From Deltaproteobacteria bacterium (GTDB lineage: Bacteria; Myxococcota; Myxococcia; Myxococcales; 40CM-4-68-19): 40,013 nt of DNA. This document shows positions 30,965-40,013 of this stretch, in pieces. The notes under the pieces were generated by a model. It saw nothing but the letters and a program-made list of their open reading frames with translations. It was not told where the DNA came from and searched no databases. Positions within the stretch are counted from its first letter, which is position 1, and each line of letters begins with the position of its first letter. The position numbers were made by a program, and so were the translations under genes. The stretch spans positions 1 to 40,013 of the forward strand of contig VBLC01000067.1 of the NCBI GenBank assembly GCA_005879315.1. The letters run 5' to 3'.

Positions 30965-33650
30965 GCCACGGACATCTGTGCCCATCGCCTTCGTGGTGCA
31001 AGCCTTTCTTGTCGCTTGCGCCGCCGCGCCGCCACCGCCGAGCAAGCCGGAGCCGCCGCCGCCGGGCCCGCTCGCCAGGAATGTCCGCCCCCTCCATTAC
31101 ACGCTGGGCTTGCGGGTCGATCCCGACCAGCCGCGCTTCAGCGGCACCGCCGAGATCGCCATCGAGCTCGATCAGCCGCGCGACCAGCTCTGGATGCACG
31201 GCCGGGGGCTTCACATCACCGAGGCGAGCGCCGACGGATCGCCGGCCCGCTTCGAGCAGGTGACCGACGACGGCGTCGCCAGCCTCTCGCTGCCGCGCGC
31301 GCTGGGGCCCGGCCGCGCGACGCTGCGCTTCGCCTGGGACGCTCCCTTCGATCCGCAGCTGGTCGGGCTCTACGTCGCGAAGGAGGCCGGGCTCAACTAC
31401 GCCTTCACGCAGTTCGAGGCGATCGACGCGCGCAAAGCCTTTCCCTGCTTCGACGACCCGGCGTTCAAGACGCCCTTCGATGTGACCCTGACCGTGCCCG
31501 CGGCCGACATCGCCGTCGCCAACACCAGCGAGCTCGAGCAGAAGCAGGAGCCTTCGGGCTTCAAGTCGATCCGCTTTGCCACGACGCTGCCGCTGCCGAC
31601 GTATCTGCTCGCCTGGTCGATCGGGCCTTTCGACGTCGTGACGCCGCCGCCGCTTCCACCGAATCCAATCCGCAAGCGGCCGCTGCAAGTCCGCGGCATC
31701 GCCGCCAAGGGCCGGGGCGCGGAGCTGTCCATTGCGCTCGAGGCGGGAGCCGCGCTGCTCATCGAGCTGGAGAAATGGTTCGGGAGCGAGTTCCCCTACG
31801 ACAAGCTCGATCACATCGCCGTGCCCGACTACAACTACGGCGCGATGGAGAACGCCGGCGCGATCACGTATCGCGAGACGTTCATCCTCTTCAACGCGAC
31901 GACCGGCGGCGCCGAGCAGAAGGCGAACATCGCCGACGGCCTGGCGCACGAGATGGCCCACCAGTGGTTCGGCGATCTGGTCACGCTGCGCTGGTGGAAC
32001 GACGCCTGGCTCAACGAATCCTTCGCCACCTGGATGGCCACCAAGACGGTGGAGCGCGCCTATCCGGCGTTCCTCCCCGGCATCGATCGGCTCAAGCGGA
32101 CCGGCGTCGCCATGATCATCGACTCTCGGGTGGCGTCGAGGAGCATCCGACAGCCGGTCGAGACGAACGCCGAGATCGGGGACGCCTTCGCCAGCAGCAT
32201 CGCCTACGACAAGGGCGCCGCCGTGCTCGGCATGTTCGAGCGCTTCGCCGGGGCGGACAAGTTCCAGGAGGGAGTGCGCCGCTACATCGAGGTGCACAGG
32301 AACGGCTCGGGATCGACCGACGAGCTGCTCGCCTCGCTCTCGCAGGCGGCGGGGCGCGACGTGGCCGGCCCCTTCCGCACTTTTCTCGACCAGCCCGGCG
32401 TGCCGCTGGTCGAGGCGCGCGTCGACTGCGAGAAGGTCCCGCAGTTGCGGCTGAAGCAGAGCCGCTTCCTGCCGGTCGGGTCCCAGGGAGATCGCGCTCG
32501 CACCTGGCAGATTCCCTTCTGCGCGCGCTACGCCGTCCAGGGCGCGGAGAAGGAGAGCTGCGCGCTTCTCGCCGAGCGCGAGGGCGCGGTCGCGCTCGAG
32601 GGCTGCCCCGACTTCGTCGTGCCCAACGCCGACGCGGGCGGGTACTACCGCTGGTCGCTCGCCAGCGCGGATCTAGCCCGGCTGCGCAAGGCGCCTCTGA
32701 CGTTGCGCGAGCGCATCTCCCTGGGGCAGAACCTGCGGGCCGCCGTGCAGAGCGCGGACCTGCGCGCTTCCGATGCCCTGCGCGCGCTCGAGCCGCTGGC
32801 GCGCGATCGCGAGGGCCCGGTGGCGAGCGAACCGATGCATCTCATCCGCGCCGTCGATCGCTACCTGTCGGACGACATCCGCCCCGCCGAGCGCGGCTAC
32901 GCGGCGAACCTCTATCGCGAGGCGTATCGGCGGTTGGGATGGGAGGCGCGACCGGGCGAGACACATGCGGACAAAATCTTCCGCCGGGAAGTGATCGAGC
33001 TTCTCGTCGGATTTTCGCGCGACGAAGAGGCGACTGCGGAGGGGGCCCGGCGCGGGAAGCTCGCTCTCGGCGATCCACGCGCGGTCGATCCCGAGCTCAC
33101 CTTCGCGGCCTTGGCGCAGTACGTCCGCAGCAGCGGCGCCTCCGCCTTCGATGCGCTCCTCGCGCGCCTGGAAAAGACCGAGGACGCCGAGGACCGCGAA
33201 CGCATCCTCGGCGCGCTCGGGTCCACGCTCGACCCGGCGCTGTCCCGGCGCGCGCTGGCGTTGGGCCTCGACCCGCGGTTGCGGAAGAACGAGCGTACCA
33301 TCGCGCTCAGCGTGCAGCTGCTGCAGCGCGAGACGCGCGAGGCGGCATGGCAGTGGCTGCGGGAGAATTTCGACGAGCTGGTCAAGCTCATCCCAGAGTT
33401 CCACGCTTCCGGCCTGCCGCTCGCGGTCGTCTTCTGCGATGCCGCGCACCTCGCGCAGATGGAATCGTTCTTCGCTCCGCGGGTGGAGAAGATCCCCAGC
33501 GCTCCGCGCAGTCTGCAGCTCGCGCTGGAGCGGACGAGGCTCTGCATCGCGGAGTCGAACGCGCAGCGCGCCGACGCCGAGTCGTTCTTCCGCCAGCTCG
33601 CCAAGGTAGGTGAAAGTAGTCAAGTGCAGCCGGCGAATCCGCGGCGCTGA
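30963..33650 (+). CDS. M1-family zinc aminopeptidase, predicted lipoprotein
   Basis: M1 aminopeptidases remove N-terminal residues from peptides. The 895-residue protein starts with a lipoprotein signal (L16-V-A-C19), then a proline-rich linker. The N-terminal beta domain has the substrate motif G293-A-M-E-N-A-G299. The catalytic domain has H329-E-M-A-H333 and the third zinc ligand E352 (H-E-x-x-H-x18-E). An ERAP1/PepN-like C-terminal helical domain completes it. Length is that of a full M1 enzyme. It probably acts on the periplasmic face of a membrane. ATG 30963 is chosen for the signal peptide, but GTG 30978 would also preserve the lipobox. Confidence 0.92.
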   Translation: MPRTSVPIAFVVQAFLVACAAAPPPPSKPEPPPPGPLARNVRPLHYTLGLRVDPDQPRFSGTAEIAIELDQPRDQLWMHGRGLHITEASADGSPARFEQVTDDGVASLSLPRALGPGRATLRFAWDAPFDPQLVGLYVAKEAGLNYAFTQFEAIDARKAFPCFDDPAFKTPFDVTLTVPAADIAVANTSELEQKQEPSGFKSIRFATTLPLPTYLLAWSIGPFDVVTPPPLPPNPIRKRPLQVRGIAAKGRGAELSIALEAGAALLIELEKWFGSEFPYDKLDHIAVPDYNYGAMENAGAITYRETFILFNATTGGAEQKANIADGLAHEMAHQWFGDLVTLRWWNDAWLNESFATWMATKTVERAYPAFLPGIDRLKRTGVAMIIDSRVASRSIRQPVETNAEIGDAFASSIAYDKGAAVLGMFERFAGADKFQEGVRRYIEVHRNGSGSTDELLASLSQAAGRDVAGPFRTFLDQPGVPLVEARVDCEKVPQLRLKQSRFLPVGSQGDRARTWQIPFCARYAVQGAEKESCALLAEREGAVALEGCPDFVVPNADAGGYYRWSLASADLARLRKAPLTLRERISLGQNLRAAVQSADLRASDALRALEPLARDREGPVASEPMHLIRAVDRYLSDDIRPAERGYAANLYREAYRRLGWEARPGETHADKIFRREVIELLVGFSRDEEATAEGARRGKLALGDPRAVDPELTFAALAQYVRSSGASAFDALLARLEKTEDAEDRERILGALGSTLDPALSRRALALGLDPRLRKNERTIALSVQLLQRETREAAWQWLRENFDELVKLIPEFHASGLPLAVVFCDAAHLAQMESFFAPRVEKIPSAPRSLQLALERTRLCIAESNAQRADAESFFRQLAKVGESSQVQPANPRR

Positions 33651-33711
33651 GCGGGCGTCTCTTCATTGCACGAGAGGTTCCGTGCGATGCTCATCGCCTC
33701 GCGGGAGATCA

Positions 33712-34515
33712 ATGGCCGATCTCGAAATCGAGCAGCGCGACAAGTCCGCGTTGCGTGCGGGCTACAGCAAGTCGGTGCGCAGGTTCGAGCTGTGCAGCAT
33801 CGCAGCTTACGCGGCGGCGATGATCTGGCTCGCCTGGCGGATCGCGCCGCGGGCGCTCCACAATCCCTGGCTCGCCTTGTGCGCCTTCATGGTGGGCTTT
33901 GTCGCCGCCGACTTCATCTCCGGGTTCGTCCACTGGACGGCGGACACCTGGGGAACGCCGGAGTGGCCGATCATCGGCAACGCGCTCATCCGTCCCTTCC
34001 GCGAGCACCACGTCGACGAGAAGGAGATCACCCGGCACGACTTCGTCGAGACGAATGGCAACAACTGCTTCATCTCGCTCGCCCCCACGGTGCTGGCGGC
34101 GCTGTTGCCGCGCTCGGGCGCAGCGCTCTTCTTCGCCGCGGCGATGACGTTCGCGCTCACGCTTGCGGTCTTCGGCACCAACCAGTTCCACAAATGGGCG
34201 CACATGGACGCGCCGCCCCCGCTGGTGAGCTGGCTGCAGCGGGCCGGGCTCATCCTTCCTCCCGAGCATCACGCCGTGCACCACCGCGCGCCGTATGCCA
34301 AGTACTACTGCATCACCGTCGGCTGGCTGAACGAGGCGCTCTTCCGCTTGCGCTTCTTCCAGGTGCTGGAGCGGATCATCAGCGCCGCCACCGGGCTCAT
34401 CCCGCGCGAGGACGACATCGGCAAGCGCGCCGCGCTGGAAGTGGCGCTGCAACCGCTGCCGCCTTTGCCCGAGCTGCCGCGGCTCTCCATCGACCTGCCG
34501 CCCGAGCTGGAGTAG
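33712..34515 (+). CDS. carF: Plasmanylethanolamine desaturase (CarF/TMEM189/PEDS1 family)
   Basis: This membrane enzyme introduces the vinyl-ether double bond that turns plasmanyl into plasmenyl-ethanolamine (plasmalogen). In Myxococcus xanthus CarF is also needed for the light/singlet-oxygen response that triggers carotenoid synthesis. From ATG 33712 (GGGAG upstream) it has 267 residues with several membrane helices. The histidine clusters of the family are present: G-F-V-H74-W-T-A-D-T-W, R-E-H99-H100-V-D, R-H109-D-F-V-E-T-N-G-N-N, F-H160-K-W-A-H164, and H186-H187-A-V-H190-H191. These are the expected iron ligands. Family membership is clear. Expression control and participation in a photoresponse here are inference. 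Confidence 0.93.
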   Translation: MADLEIEQRDKSALRAGYSKSVRRFELCSIAAYAAAMIWLAWRIAPRALHNPWLALCAFMVGFVAADFISGFVHWTADTWGTPEWPIIGNALIRPFREHHVDEKEITRHDFVETNGNNCFISLAPTVLAALLPRSGAALFFAAAMTFALTLAVFGTNQFHKWAHMDAPPPLVSWLQRAGLILPPEHHAVHHRAPYAKYYCITVGWLNEALFRLRFFQVLERIISAATGLIPREDDIGKRAALEVALQPLPPLPELPRLSIDLPPELE

Positions 34516-36595: not shown

Positions 36596-36671
<76 letters not shown>

Positions 36672-36785: not shown

Positions 36786-37877
36786 ATGCCGAGGAACGCA
36801 GGCAAGTGGGACGGCGGGTACATCCGCAAGGACAAGCGGGGGCGCAAGGTCTATTACATCCGCAAGGCGATCGGGGACCGGCACTACGACGTGTCGACTC
36901 GTGCGACCTCGGAGAGCGCGGCGCACGACCAGCTCAAGCGCTTTCAAGCGAACCCGGAATCCTACGATCCACGCGGCGACGTGCGGCCAGATCCGATCTG
37001 GCTCGACAAGAAGCTGTCGGAGGAGTTCCTCACCTACTCGCGCGAGGAGAAGAAGAACAGCCGGGGCTGGGTGGCCGAGCAGCGCGCGCTTCTCGCCGAC
37101 TGGGCCGAGGATCTGCGCGGGGTCGATCTGCGCCGCGCGTCGTTGCGCGATCACATCCTTCCCGCGCTCAAGAACGTGACGAGCCGATCGCACCGCATTG
37201 AGGTGCTCAAGGTCTTCTACTCGTGGCTGCGGACGGTGAAGCGCGACCTGACCCTGAACGAAGATCCGACCGCTGGCGGCGCGCTCAAGGTTCCGCAGGC
37301 CGATCCCTCTCAACGCCGCGTCGCCAATAAGGCGGTCTCGCGCCAGCACGTTGAGCTTGCGCGTGAGCATCTCGTCGGTGGCTGGCGCGATGCGCTCGAT
37401 CTCCAGATGGAAACCGGCTGGCACGTGTCAGAGGTGGCGCGGTTCGCCCGCGAAGGGGAGATCGAGCCGCCTGCTCCATCTCAGCGCGAGCTGGGTGTGG
37501 CGGGGGTGCTGATCGTCCCGCACAAGAGTGGCGCGCATCATCGCACGGCAGTATCGGCGAAGACGCTGGAAGTGGCGCAGCGCCTGCGCGAGCGCTGCGG
37601 CTTGTCGATCGCTTGGTACATGCGAGCGGTCAAGTCCGCCTGCAAGGCGGCCGGTCTCAAGAAGCCGTTCGGGCCGGGGCAGTTGCGACACTCGGTCGCG
37701 ACATGGGCGGTGAACGCCGGTTTCGACCTCCCCATGGTGGCCTCGTTCCTCGGCCATCGGAGCGCGAGCACCACGAGGAAGTTCTACGCGACTCACGCGA
37801 CGCCGAAGAATCCGATGCTGCCGGTGCCGCCCACTATGCCGAAGAAGCGAAGCCGGAAGGCGCGCCCAGCGAACTAG
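36786..37877 (+). CDS. Tyrosine-type recombinase/integrase of a tRNA-integrated element
   Basis: This 363-residue protein has a basic N-terminal arm-binding-like segment, a SAM-like core-binding domain (about 70-160) and a C-terminal catalytic domain (about 185-340). The expected six residues of tyrosine recombinases are only partly canonical. The first Arg aligns with H213 in T-G-W-H-V-S-E. Lys is K247. The H-x-x-R motif reads G298-Q-L-R301. The later His is H324 (L-G-H-R-S) and the nucleophile is Y334 (F-Y-A-T-H). Position beside a tRNA 3' end argues that it integrated there. Activity with His/Gly replacements needs testing. The next gene is a TIR-STAND gene. Confidence 0.85.
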   Translation: MPRNAGKWDGGYIRKDKRGRKVYYIRKAIGDRHYDVSTRATSESAAHDQLKRFQANPESYDPRGDVRPDPIWLDKKLSEEFLTYSREEKKNSRGWVAEQRALLADWAEDLRGVDLRRASLRDHILPALKNVTSRSHRIEVLKVFYSWLRTVKRDLTLNEDPTAGGALKVPQADPSQRRVANKAVSRQHVELAREHLVGGWRDALDLQMETGWHVSEVARFAREGEIEPPAPSQRELGVAGVLIVPHKSGAHHRTAVSAKTLEVAQRLRERCGLSIAWYMRAVKSACKAAGLKKPFGPGQLRHSVATWAVNAGFDLPMVASFLGHRSASTTRKFYATHATPKNPMLPVPPTMPKKRSRKARPAN

Positions 37878-37943: not shown

Positions 37944-37958
37944 ATGCTTCCGCTATGA
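37944..37958 (+). CDS. Possible four-codon leader ORF overlapping the TIR-STAND start
   Basis: ATG-CTT-CCG-CTA-TGA follows GGAGGA (37937-37942), and its stop overlaps the ATG at 37955 by two bases (ATGA). GGAGGA may instead serve only the main ATG, 12 bases downstream. It may be chance, or a translational-coupling device. Confidence 0.25.
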   Translation: MLPL

Positions 37959-40013
37959 AGACGTTCTTCATCAGCCACTCTTCCAGAAACAATCCTCTCG
38001 TCATTGCTGTCGCTGAGATTCTTGGACAGGAGCAATGCTGGCTCGATGCGTGGGAGCTTCGCGGAGGGGAAGACATTCTCAAAGTGATCGACGCCGGAGT
38101 TGAAGCCGTAAAGGTGTTCGTAATCTTTTGGTCTGCCGATGCCAAGGCGTCGCCGTGGGTAGACGAGGAATTGGGCCAAGCACGCTATCGCCGGCTGCGC
38201 CGTGGAGATGTAACGATCGTCGCTGTAAAGCTGGACAACACGCCGATGCCGACGTGGCTCGAACGATTGCTGTATATCGACGGAAAGAAAGGACCCGAAC
38301 ACATTGCAAGGGAACTCGCGCGTGTTCGTGATGAGTCGTCTCTGCAAACGCCGGTAGAGGAAGCACGACAAGAGGACTCATTCCAAAATCGTCTCAAAGA
38401 GTCCGAACGGATTGAACGAGCATACCACTCGCCCGAGCACGCCGGTGTAATTCTTTCTGGCCTTCCTGGAATGGGCAAGACTGCGTTGTGGCGGTGGACG
38501 CTGAGGCACCGATTAGCCCACCTCTCGCCACTAAAGGTCGATTTGGAGGTAGGCAATACGCCGGCCTTTTTCTTTGGCTCGCTGGCGAAGAACCTGGAGT
38601 TACGCTTGCCGGCATCCGTGACCCAGTCGGGCGATTGGTCCGATTACTGGACGAAATGGGTGCTTCCATCAATCGATCCAGATGCCGCCGTGCTCATCAT
38701 CGACGGAACACACTTAGCACTTGACCCAGCGGGACGGCTGCCAGAGTGGCTCGAGAATGTCTTTAGAGATCTCCTGGCGTCCTCGAGTGAGAATCAACTG
38801 CGGCTGATACTCGCGACGAATAAGCCGATACCGCTTCCCGCAAGAGTGCAATCCAAAGTGGAAGAGATTCAACTGGGGCGACTTCCCGATGAAGACGTTA
38901 TTCGCTCCCTGCGTTACCGCTTATCCATAACGCAGCCGCGTCGAACGGCGAGCGAACCTCAACTCGAGGAAGCCGCGGGATTTATTAGTGGCTATCCGCT
39001 GGGCGCGCAGCTTTGGGCCGCGTATGCTGTAAAAGTTGGCGTTGATCTCGCGATTTTGGATCCAGCGCCTGTACAGAAGCAGGTACAAGATTTAGTAGCA
39101 GACATGCTTTCAAAGGCCGCTCCTACCGAAGCGGAACAAAGAGTACTATTGCTCTTGAGCGTGCTCAGGCTTCCGGCGTCCGTAGAGTCTCTGGTTAGGG
39201 ATCTCGATGTGAAGGCAGAAACTCTCACTTCGTTAGAGCGTTCATTTCTGCTTGACCCGACAGCTGACGGGATAGCAGTCCATGGGCTGCTCGGCAAACA
39301 CATAGTAGAGAAGTATTCAAGCCATGTGGCTGTCACGGCCGCACATGAACGGGTGGGAAGATACTACCTTAAGGAATGGAGGGCGGCCCCGGAGGAGTTC
39401 GCATCAAGCGCTGTACTGGGGTCTCAAGCTTACTTTCATCTTCTTGCTGCCGGTCGAATGGACGACGCTGCCGCGATCTCGTGGAGTCTTACGGAGGAGG
39501 CTCGAAACGCAATGATAGAGTTATATCGAACTCATCAAGACGAAATTGTCATATCAATCGGTAAACAGCTAATCCGAGATCTGGGCAAGAAAGCTGACCC
39601 TAGTATTCTGTTCTACTACGGCCTTGCCTGCGGTAGGAGAAATGACGGCGCGGACGATCGACGCGAGGCACTCGCCACGTTTGACCGGCTGCTCAAATTG
39701 CACGTGGACAATCGGTTCTACTGGTCTGGCTACGGAGATACCCTTTCAAGGTTGGGAAAGGACCAAGAAGCGAAGAAGGCGTACACGCGTGCGCGCGCTC
39801 TTAGTGATCCTCGAGATCCGGTGCCAAGCAACCGACTTGGCGAGTTGCTCTTGCGGGAAGGAAAAATTGAGGAAGCCGAAACATTTTTGCACGAGGCACA
39901 TTCACGCGCACCAGGGGATCTAAGAGTTGTCGCCTCCTATGCCGCCCTCCTGCAACAACAAGGGAAGCTCGAGGACGCACTGAGGCTGGTGAAGGCTGGG
40001 CTGCAGAGGCGAC
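37955..40013 (+). CDS. TIR-STAND NTPase-TPR protein (NLR-like, probable antiphage defence), 3' end outside window
   Basis: The frame is open from ATG 37955 to the right edge, 686 codons without a stop. Residues 1-125 form a TIR domain: F-F-I-S-H-S-S, W-L-D-A-W-E34-L-R-G-G, V-F-V-I-F-W-S and S-P-W-V-D-E-E-L. E34 is the nearest candidate for the NADase glutamate, but it sits one to two positions from the usual place. Residues about 145-380 form a STAND/NACHT-like P-loop NTPase with Walker A G169-L-P-G-M-G-K175-T176, Walker B L-I-I-D250 and I-L-A-T-N (285-289). A winged-helix-like part follows, then TPRs (about 548-686) that probably sense a trigger. In known systems such proteins oligomerise on phage recognition and the TIR domain depletes NAD. 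Function here is inferred. Confidence 0.85.
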   Translation, partial: MKTFFISHSSRNNPLVIAVAEILGQEQCWLDAWELRGGEDILKVIDAGVEAVKVFVIFWSADAKASPWVDEELGQARYRRLRRGDVTIVAVKLDNTPMPTWLERLLYIDGKKGPEHIARELARVRDESSLQTPVEEARQEDSFQNRLKESERIERAYHSPEHAGVILSGLPGMGKTALWRWTLRHRLAHLSPLKVDLEVGNTPAFFFGSLAKNLELRLPASVTQSGDWSDYWTKWVLPSIDPDAAVLIIDGTHLALDPAGRLPEWLENVFRDLLASSSENQLRLILATNKPIPLPARVQSKVEEIQLGRLPDEDVIRSLRYRLSITQPRRTASEPQLEEAAGFISGYPLGAQLWAAYAVKVGVDLAILDPAPVQKQVQDLVADMLSKAAPTEAEQRVLLLLSVLRLPASVESLVRDLDVKAETLTSLERSFLLDPTADGIAVHGLLGKHIVEKYSSHVAVTAAHERVGRYYLKEWRAAPEEFASSAVLGSQAYFHLLAAGRMDDAAAISWSLTEEARNAMIELYRTHQDEIVISIGKQLIRDLGKKADPSILFYYGLACGRRNDGADDRREALATFDRLLKLHVDNRFYWSGYGDTLSRLGKDQEAKKAYTRARALSDPRDPVPSNRLGELLLREGKIEEAETFLHEAHSRAPGDLRVVASYAALLQQQGKLEDALRLVKAGLQRR

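Follow-up and report, generated by a model that had tools for sequence, protein, structure and literature searches.

A divergent TIR-STAND-TPR protein, probably an anti-phage receptor of the TIR-NLR type, encoded beside a tRNA-adjacent integrase

Described TIR-NLR systems and the gene at the contig end

The TIR-NLR of P4-like satellites (Rousset et al. 2022, PMC9122126; PADLOC model PDLC03015; PDB 9m0n/9umd) is a single gene that codes for an N-terminal TIR domain, a central STAND module and C-terminal TPRs and that protects E. coli against phages, NAD+ degradation being only proposed in that work on the P2/P4 hotspots. A literature search for a paper on 9m0n returned none. Other described proteins share single parts of this layout. 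Specifically, Avs5 (SIR2-STAND) and Avs3/Avs4 are anti-phage proteins with a STAND core, joined to a SIR2 or nuclease-type effector and to another sensor; ThsB of Thoeris is a stand-alone TIR that works with a ThsA partner; and RPP1, Roq1 and CED-4/APAF1 combine the same NB-ARC-type fold with LRR or WD40 sensors, or with none.

The stretch of DNA analysed here (the window, 40,013 nucleotides) is an entire contig, ending at position 40013, of a draft genome of 4.43 Mb in 125 contigs, and its last gene (37955..40012, forward strand, as are the domains and motifs within it) encodes TIR, STAND and TPR modules in a single polypeptide whose C-terminus lies beyond the contig. It shares with the satellite system the order of the domains in one gene, the WxxxE and GxP motifs, a colinear core, a homologous STAND module and a mobile-element or defence context. 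Conversely, it shows only about 16% identity to P0001 (a Photobacterium plasmid protein), a Walker A that ends in GKT rather than GRR, an incomplete TPR array and a PDLC03015 match that covers the TIR only, and it occupies a tRNA-associated locus in a distant bacterium.

The frame starts with ATG and runs for 686 codons to the contig end with no stop, as the original prediction had noted, and any downstream partner genes would lie beyond the contig. The gene is truncated by the assembly, with about three quarters of it present, and is not extendable in the present assembly because the contig ends at 40013; the final 124 bases do not recur on other contigs of the assembly, among which no overlapping contig was found. 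Judged from full-length relatives of ~820-870 aa, the missing C-terminus probably amounts to ~150-200 aa.

The combination of three modules in one long frame, also part of the original prediction, is borne out by Pfam matches and by the predicted fold. The TIR domain (aa 1-127, 37955..38335) matches TIR_2 (PF13676) at aa 4-113 with 69 bits against a cut-off of 28 (6.8e-19) and aligns to Cat1 and AbTIR. The STAND/NB-ARC-type NTPase (aa ~140-460, 38372..39334) has helical and winged-helix parts, is matched by AAA_22 at aa 165-287 (29.6 bits against a cut-off of 27), and is further delimited by HMM and hhalign comparison with the TIR-NLR STAND core, by the AlphaFold model and by fold matches. Both Walker motifs are intact, as had been claimed: the Walker A GLPGMGKT (aa 169-176, 38459..38482) provides K175 and T176, and the Walker B VLIIDGTH (aa 246-253, 38690..38713) provides D250. 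They are accompanied by the GxP motif at G346-P348 and by a winged-helix part after the NBD, with its hairpin at 433-442 in the model. The incomplete TPR array (aa ~485-686, 39407..40012) is covered by several Pfam TPR models above their cut-offs at aa 550-685 and by the AlphaFold model, with a Z of 18.9 to the TPR protein 2pl2.

The AlphaFold model used here comes from a six-row alignment (pLDDT 71, pTM 0.48), since a prediction from the single sequence modelled the NTPase poorly (pLDDT 52); in the six-row model the BB loop, the linker 130-142 and portions of the winged-helix region are of low confidence. The top Foldseek matches of this model are the STAND-TPR protein 6mfv, the plant TIR-NLR RPP1, EfAvs5 and Avs3, with 9jap, 8dgc and 8dgf as the matched Avs structures; 9m0n, although it is the nearest solved TIR-NLR by sequence, is absent among the fold-search matches listed and may rank lower. 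In pairwise alignment with VIA-align, CED-4 reaches Z 20.6 (rmsd 4.6, 326 aligned), NRC4 20.2, the human apoptosome 20.1, and RPP1 18.6 over residues 1-465 of the model (rmsd 7.0, 426 aligned), that is, over TIR and NBD. These matches to CED-4, APAF1 and plant resistosomes support an NLR-like predicted fold, in line with the animal and plant layout that had been proposed; since whole-chain TM-scores are low, the claim is confined to the domain folds and their order, to the exclusion of the arrangement between domains. With Z values of 18-21 at 9-15% identity and a TPR sensor on the side of the window protein, the relation to RPP1, Roq1 and CED-4/APAF1 is a likeness of fold rather than membership. 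The model also contains the expected TIR fold, with a flavodoxin-like order of strands and helices and with RPP1 aligned from residue 1.

TIR active site and homology to the TIR-NLR family

The catalytic glutamate of AbTIR is E208 (PMC10022894), and the active site of Cat1 is lined by S7, H8, N9, N10, D33, S68 and E74 (PMC12162218). In HMMER alignments with residue mapping, W68..E72 of the window protein forms a WxxxE that aligns with W204/E208 of AbTIR and with E74 of Cat1. Specifically, the AbTIR glutamate is chain position 78 of 7uwg, four residues past W74, and pairs with E72 after W68; taking chain position 4 as residue 134 gives E208 exactly. The seven Cat1 residues, in the order given, pair with S7, H8, S9, S10, D31, S66 and E72, so that S7, H8, D31, S66, W68 and E72 are active-site residues kept in the window TIR, and W68, V69 and E72 are invariant in a seven-member alignment. 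By this alignment, the catalytic position is E72 of an intact WxxxE.

The original prediction had placed the catalytic glutamate in an off-position D31-A-W-E34 motif, had left room for a different TIR chemistry and had asked for an alignment with AbTIR and for an E34A mutant. The alignment moves the glutamate to E72. The D31-A-W-E34 segment aligns with strand bB and the start of the BB loop of Cat1 and AbTIR, and by the same mapping D31 is an active-site position and E34 is not the catalytic glutamate. A catalytic role for E34, considered by analogy with other BB-region motifs, is ruled out by the literature together with the residue mapping to E72. E34A would test the wrong residue because the catalytic glutamate aligns with E72, and with active-site residues that align with those of Cat1, the sequence gives no ground for unusual chemistry.

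Colinear TIR-STAND-TPR proteins are encoded on a Photobacterium plasmid (P0001), on a Komagataeibacter plasmid (P0002), in another genome (G036) of the same order as the window (P0003), in further proteobacterial and other genomes (P0004, P0005, P0006, L120-L123) and on viral contigs (L115-L117). Matches to the whole protein in its own genome and across the order were left out as relatives because they are mostly TPR-only. The closest full-length relative found is P0004 (L077, proteobacterial genome G204; phmmer 1.7e-21), which is colinear over window residues 4-662 at ~22% identity and shares the GLPG(I/M)G start of Walker A and the Walker B aspartate; it differs in a Walker A that reads GIGRRS and in that the flanking DNA read encodes no related integrase. 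Overall, the window protein is only ~15-22% identical to any relative, single-protein scans of the genome and viral collections and of phage records returned no close relative, and full-length relatives occur in 2 of the 193 genomes of the phylum, a rare and patchy distribution.

Several relatives are tied to the described system by their scores against PDLC03015 (P0001 919 bits, L115 585, P0004 129, P0005 99, L117 65), and P0001 matches the solved chain 9m0n with 848 bits. The window protein has no full-length match to PDLC03015, scoring 25.7 bits over residues 3-78 in the TIR, and therefore does not count as a TIR-NLR by the PADLOC definition. Because TIR and TPR domains are common, the STAND core was tested alone: an HMM built from the 13 relatives, with the window protein excluded, was run against window residues 130-480, free of TIR and TPRs. 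The core scores 38.5 bits (E 3.7e-11 for 1000 sequences), while two other STAND-type proteins reach 12 bits, FtsH stays below 2 and the best of 200 shuffles gives 2; hhalign gives 97.9%. This score against at most 12 bits in the controls extends the homology to the NTPase, and the window protein is homologous to the anti-phage TIR-NLR system, though divergent from it.

The surroundings of the family agree with the P2/P4 hotspot work (PMC9122126), in that its members are carried by phages and by defence-type loci. With gene identities read from translations, lysis and baseplate-type genes flank L117 in a P2-like prophage, and a prophage also carries L116, among tail genes and a transposase. Moreover, L115 adjoins a DNA methylase, and the G036 copy (L037 5766-12049) adjoins an NaeI-type restriction endonuclease, Vsr, a cytosine methylase and an HNH nuclease; in this copy the TIR-NLR-type frame seems to be broken in two, with 630 codons in one piece and 202 in the other.

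Integrase, tRNA-Thr and composition

The TIR gene directly follows a tRNA-adjacent recombinase, as originally described. A tRNA-Thr (CGT) identified by ARAGORN (36596..36671, forward strand), also present in relatives, is the probable attachment site, and a tyrosine recombinase of 363 aa (36786..37877, forward strand; PF00589 8.6e-12, phrog_1 2.5e-15) ends 77 bp before the TIR gene; a simple consensus search found neither a promoter nor a terminator between the two genes. In related genomes of the family, tRNA-Thr(CGT) comes after a conserved solute-binding-protein gene and the DNA past the tRNA varies between genomes, and in another genus of the family (G011) a 37% identical integrase follows the same tRNA. 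The TIR-STAND-TPR gene has a GC content of 54.8%, where stretches of equal size have 68.8% (sd 1.6; z -8.8) and the integrase has 66%, and the TIR gene was not found in any of the same-genus genomes. The integrase by the tRNA, the low GC, the variable DNA past the tRNA and the absence from relatives support a putative integrated, foreign segment at tRNA-Thr(CGT). The earlier proposal of a tRNA-integrated element thus stands as to the integrase by the tRNA 3' end and the foreign composition, while the element itself is recognised from its left end only: a search for the tRNA 3' end that allowed 2 mismatches gave no further copy, and the right end of the element lies off the contig.

Three further observations concern this region. 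The integrase (36786-37877) and a homologue in another genus (L071 3926-4714) both carry a histidine at the position of the first catalytic arginine (TGWHVSE and TAWHTTE, respectively) and seem to lack the usual histidine of the HxxR box, so they may represent a family of recombinases that is associated with tRNA-Thr and has an unusual set of active-site residues. In four same-genus genomes, the contigs (L065, L066, L067, L068) end ~0.2-0.9 kb after tRNA-Thr(CGT), which suggests that assemblies break here because the region is variable or repeated. Lastly, the chromosomal part of the contig encodes a CarF-type lipid desaturase (33610-34515; PF10520, 200 bits), which hints at a host among the Myxococcota.

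Proposed mode of action, alternatives and significance

The window gene quite likely encodes a divergent, single-protein anti-phage receptor of the TIR-NLR type, which would have been brought in on an element integrated at tRNA-Thr(CGT) and would work as follows. The TPRs would bind a phage product, the NB-ARC-like NTPase, with its canonical Walker A and B, would exchange nucleotide and oligomerise, and the TIR domains so gathered would build a composite active site in which E72 would drive NAD+ cleavage and stop the infected cell by abortive infection. Active sites assembled between TIR domains occur in plant TIR-NLR tetramers. The model for this step is also provided by the filaments of Cat1 (PMC12162218). 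Against this reading stand the identity of only ~15-22% to any relative, the TIR-only PADLOC match, the C-terminus and downstream genes that lie beyond the contig, the missing right attachment site, the histidine at the first catalytic arginine of the integrase, and a conceivable misjoin of the contig, given that GC changes close to its end. The original prediction had presented bacterial relatives as abortive-infection sensors and the NLR layout in a bacterium as noteworthy. Homologues are indeed known to be anti-phage (PMC9122126), though protection is shown for the E. coli member only and NAD+ loss is only proposed there; the layout is real, though already known as the TIR-NLR system and no surprise in itself.

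Alternatively, the TIR might not kill by depleting NAD+ itself but synthesise a signal nucleotide (a cADPR isomer) that acts on an unseen partner effector. ThsB makes such a nucleotide in Thoeris, the window TIR has weak matches to ThsB models, and the genes downstream lie beyond the contig end. These matches are confined to the TIR level, and the window TIR, in contrast to ThsB, has its own sensor and oligomerisation module (STAND-TPR) fused to it; relatives with intact surroundings (L072, L100, L037) stand alone, with no constant neighbour, and PMC9122126 describes the TIR-NLR that it tested as a single protein, all of which makes a partner-dependent receptor unlikely. A regulatory or housekeeping STAND protein, employed in signalling, development or secretion instead of defence, would accord with the many TPR proteins of the same genomes and of this TPR-rich order. 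It is quite improbable, given the intact TIR active-site residues, the foreign GC, the patchy distribution, the integrase neighbour, and homologues located in prophages and beside restriction genes.

The position of the gene also raises the prospect of a decayed or misassembled fragment with no functional product, as the contig end cuts the gene, the GC shifts near this end and a misjoin of the contig is conceivable. A run of 686 codons with no stop, with all key motifs intact and colinear with full-length proteins, makes this very improbable, and a functional TIR-NLR-type receptor is preferred. Such a receptor takes the TIR-NLR immune-receptor architecture beyond the E. coli satellites from which it was described and into a distant bacterium.

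The nucleotide-binding site sets the window protein apart from its relatives, a point on which PMC9122126 makes no mention of Walker motifs. In a small sample of 13 relatives (P0001-P0006, L115-L117, L120-L123), compared by alignment, the window protein alone has the canonical GKT, and the position of the Walker A lysine is occupied by arginine in all the others, mostly as GRR, with GRS in L115, GRK in L120 and GRT in L122. The Walker B aspartate, present in the window protein, is lacking in P0002, P0003, P0006 and L116. It could tentatively be proposed, as a rather doubtful reading, that the window protein belongs to a TIR-NLR lineage of its own, whose Walker A is functional in ATP binding; the known branch would have lost the lysine (GRR), and its gating may depend on bound nucleotide with no classical hydrolysis. 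If so, the two lineages would employ different activation switches on the same chassis. The occurrence of GKT and of a lysine-less P-loop within one family is a testable contrast, relevant to the activation of bacterial NLR-like proteins and to the question of which form is ancestral and nearer to the NLRs of plants and animals.
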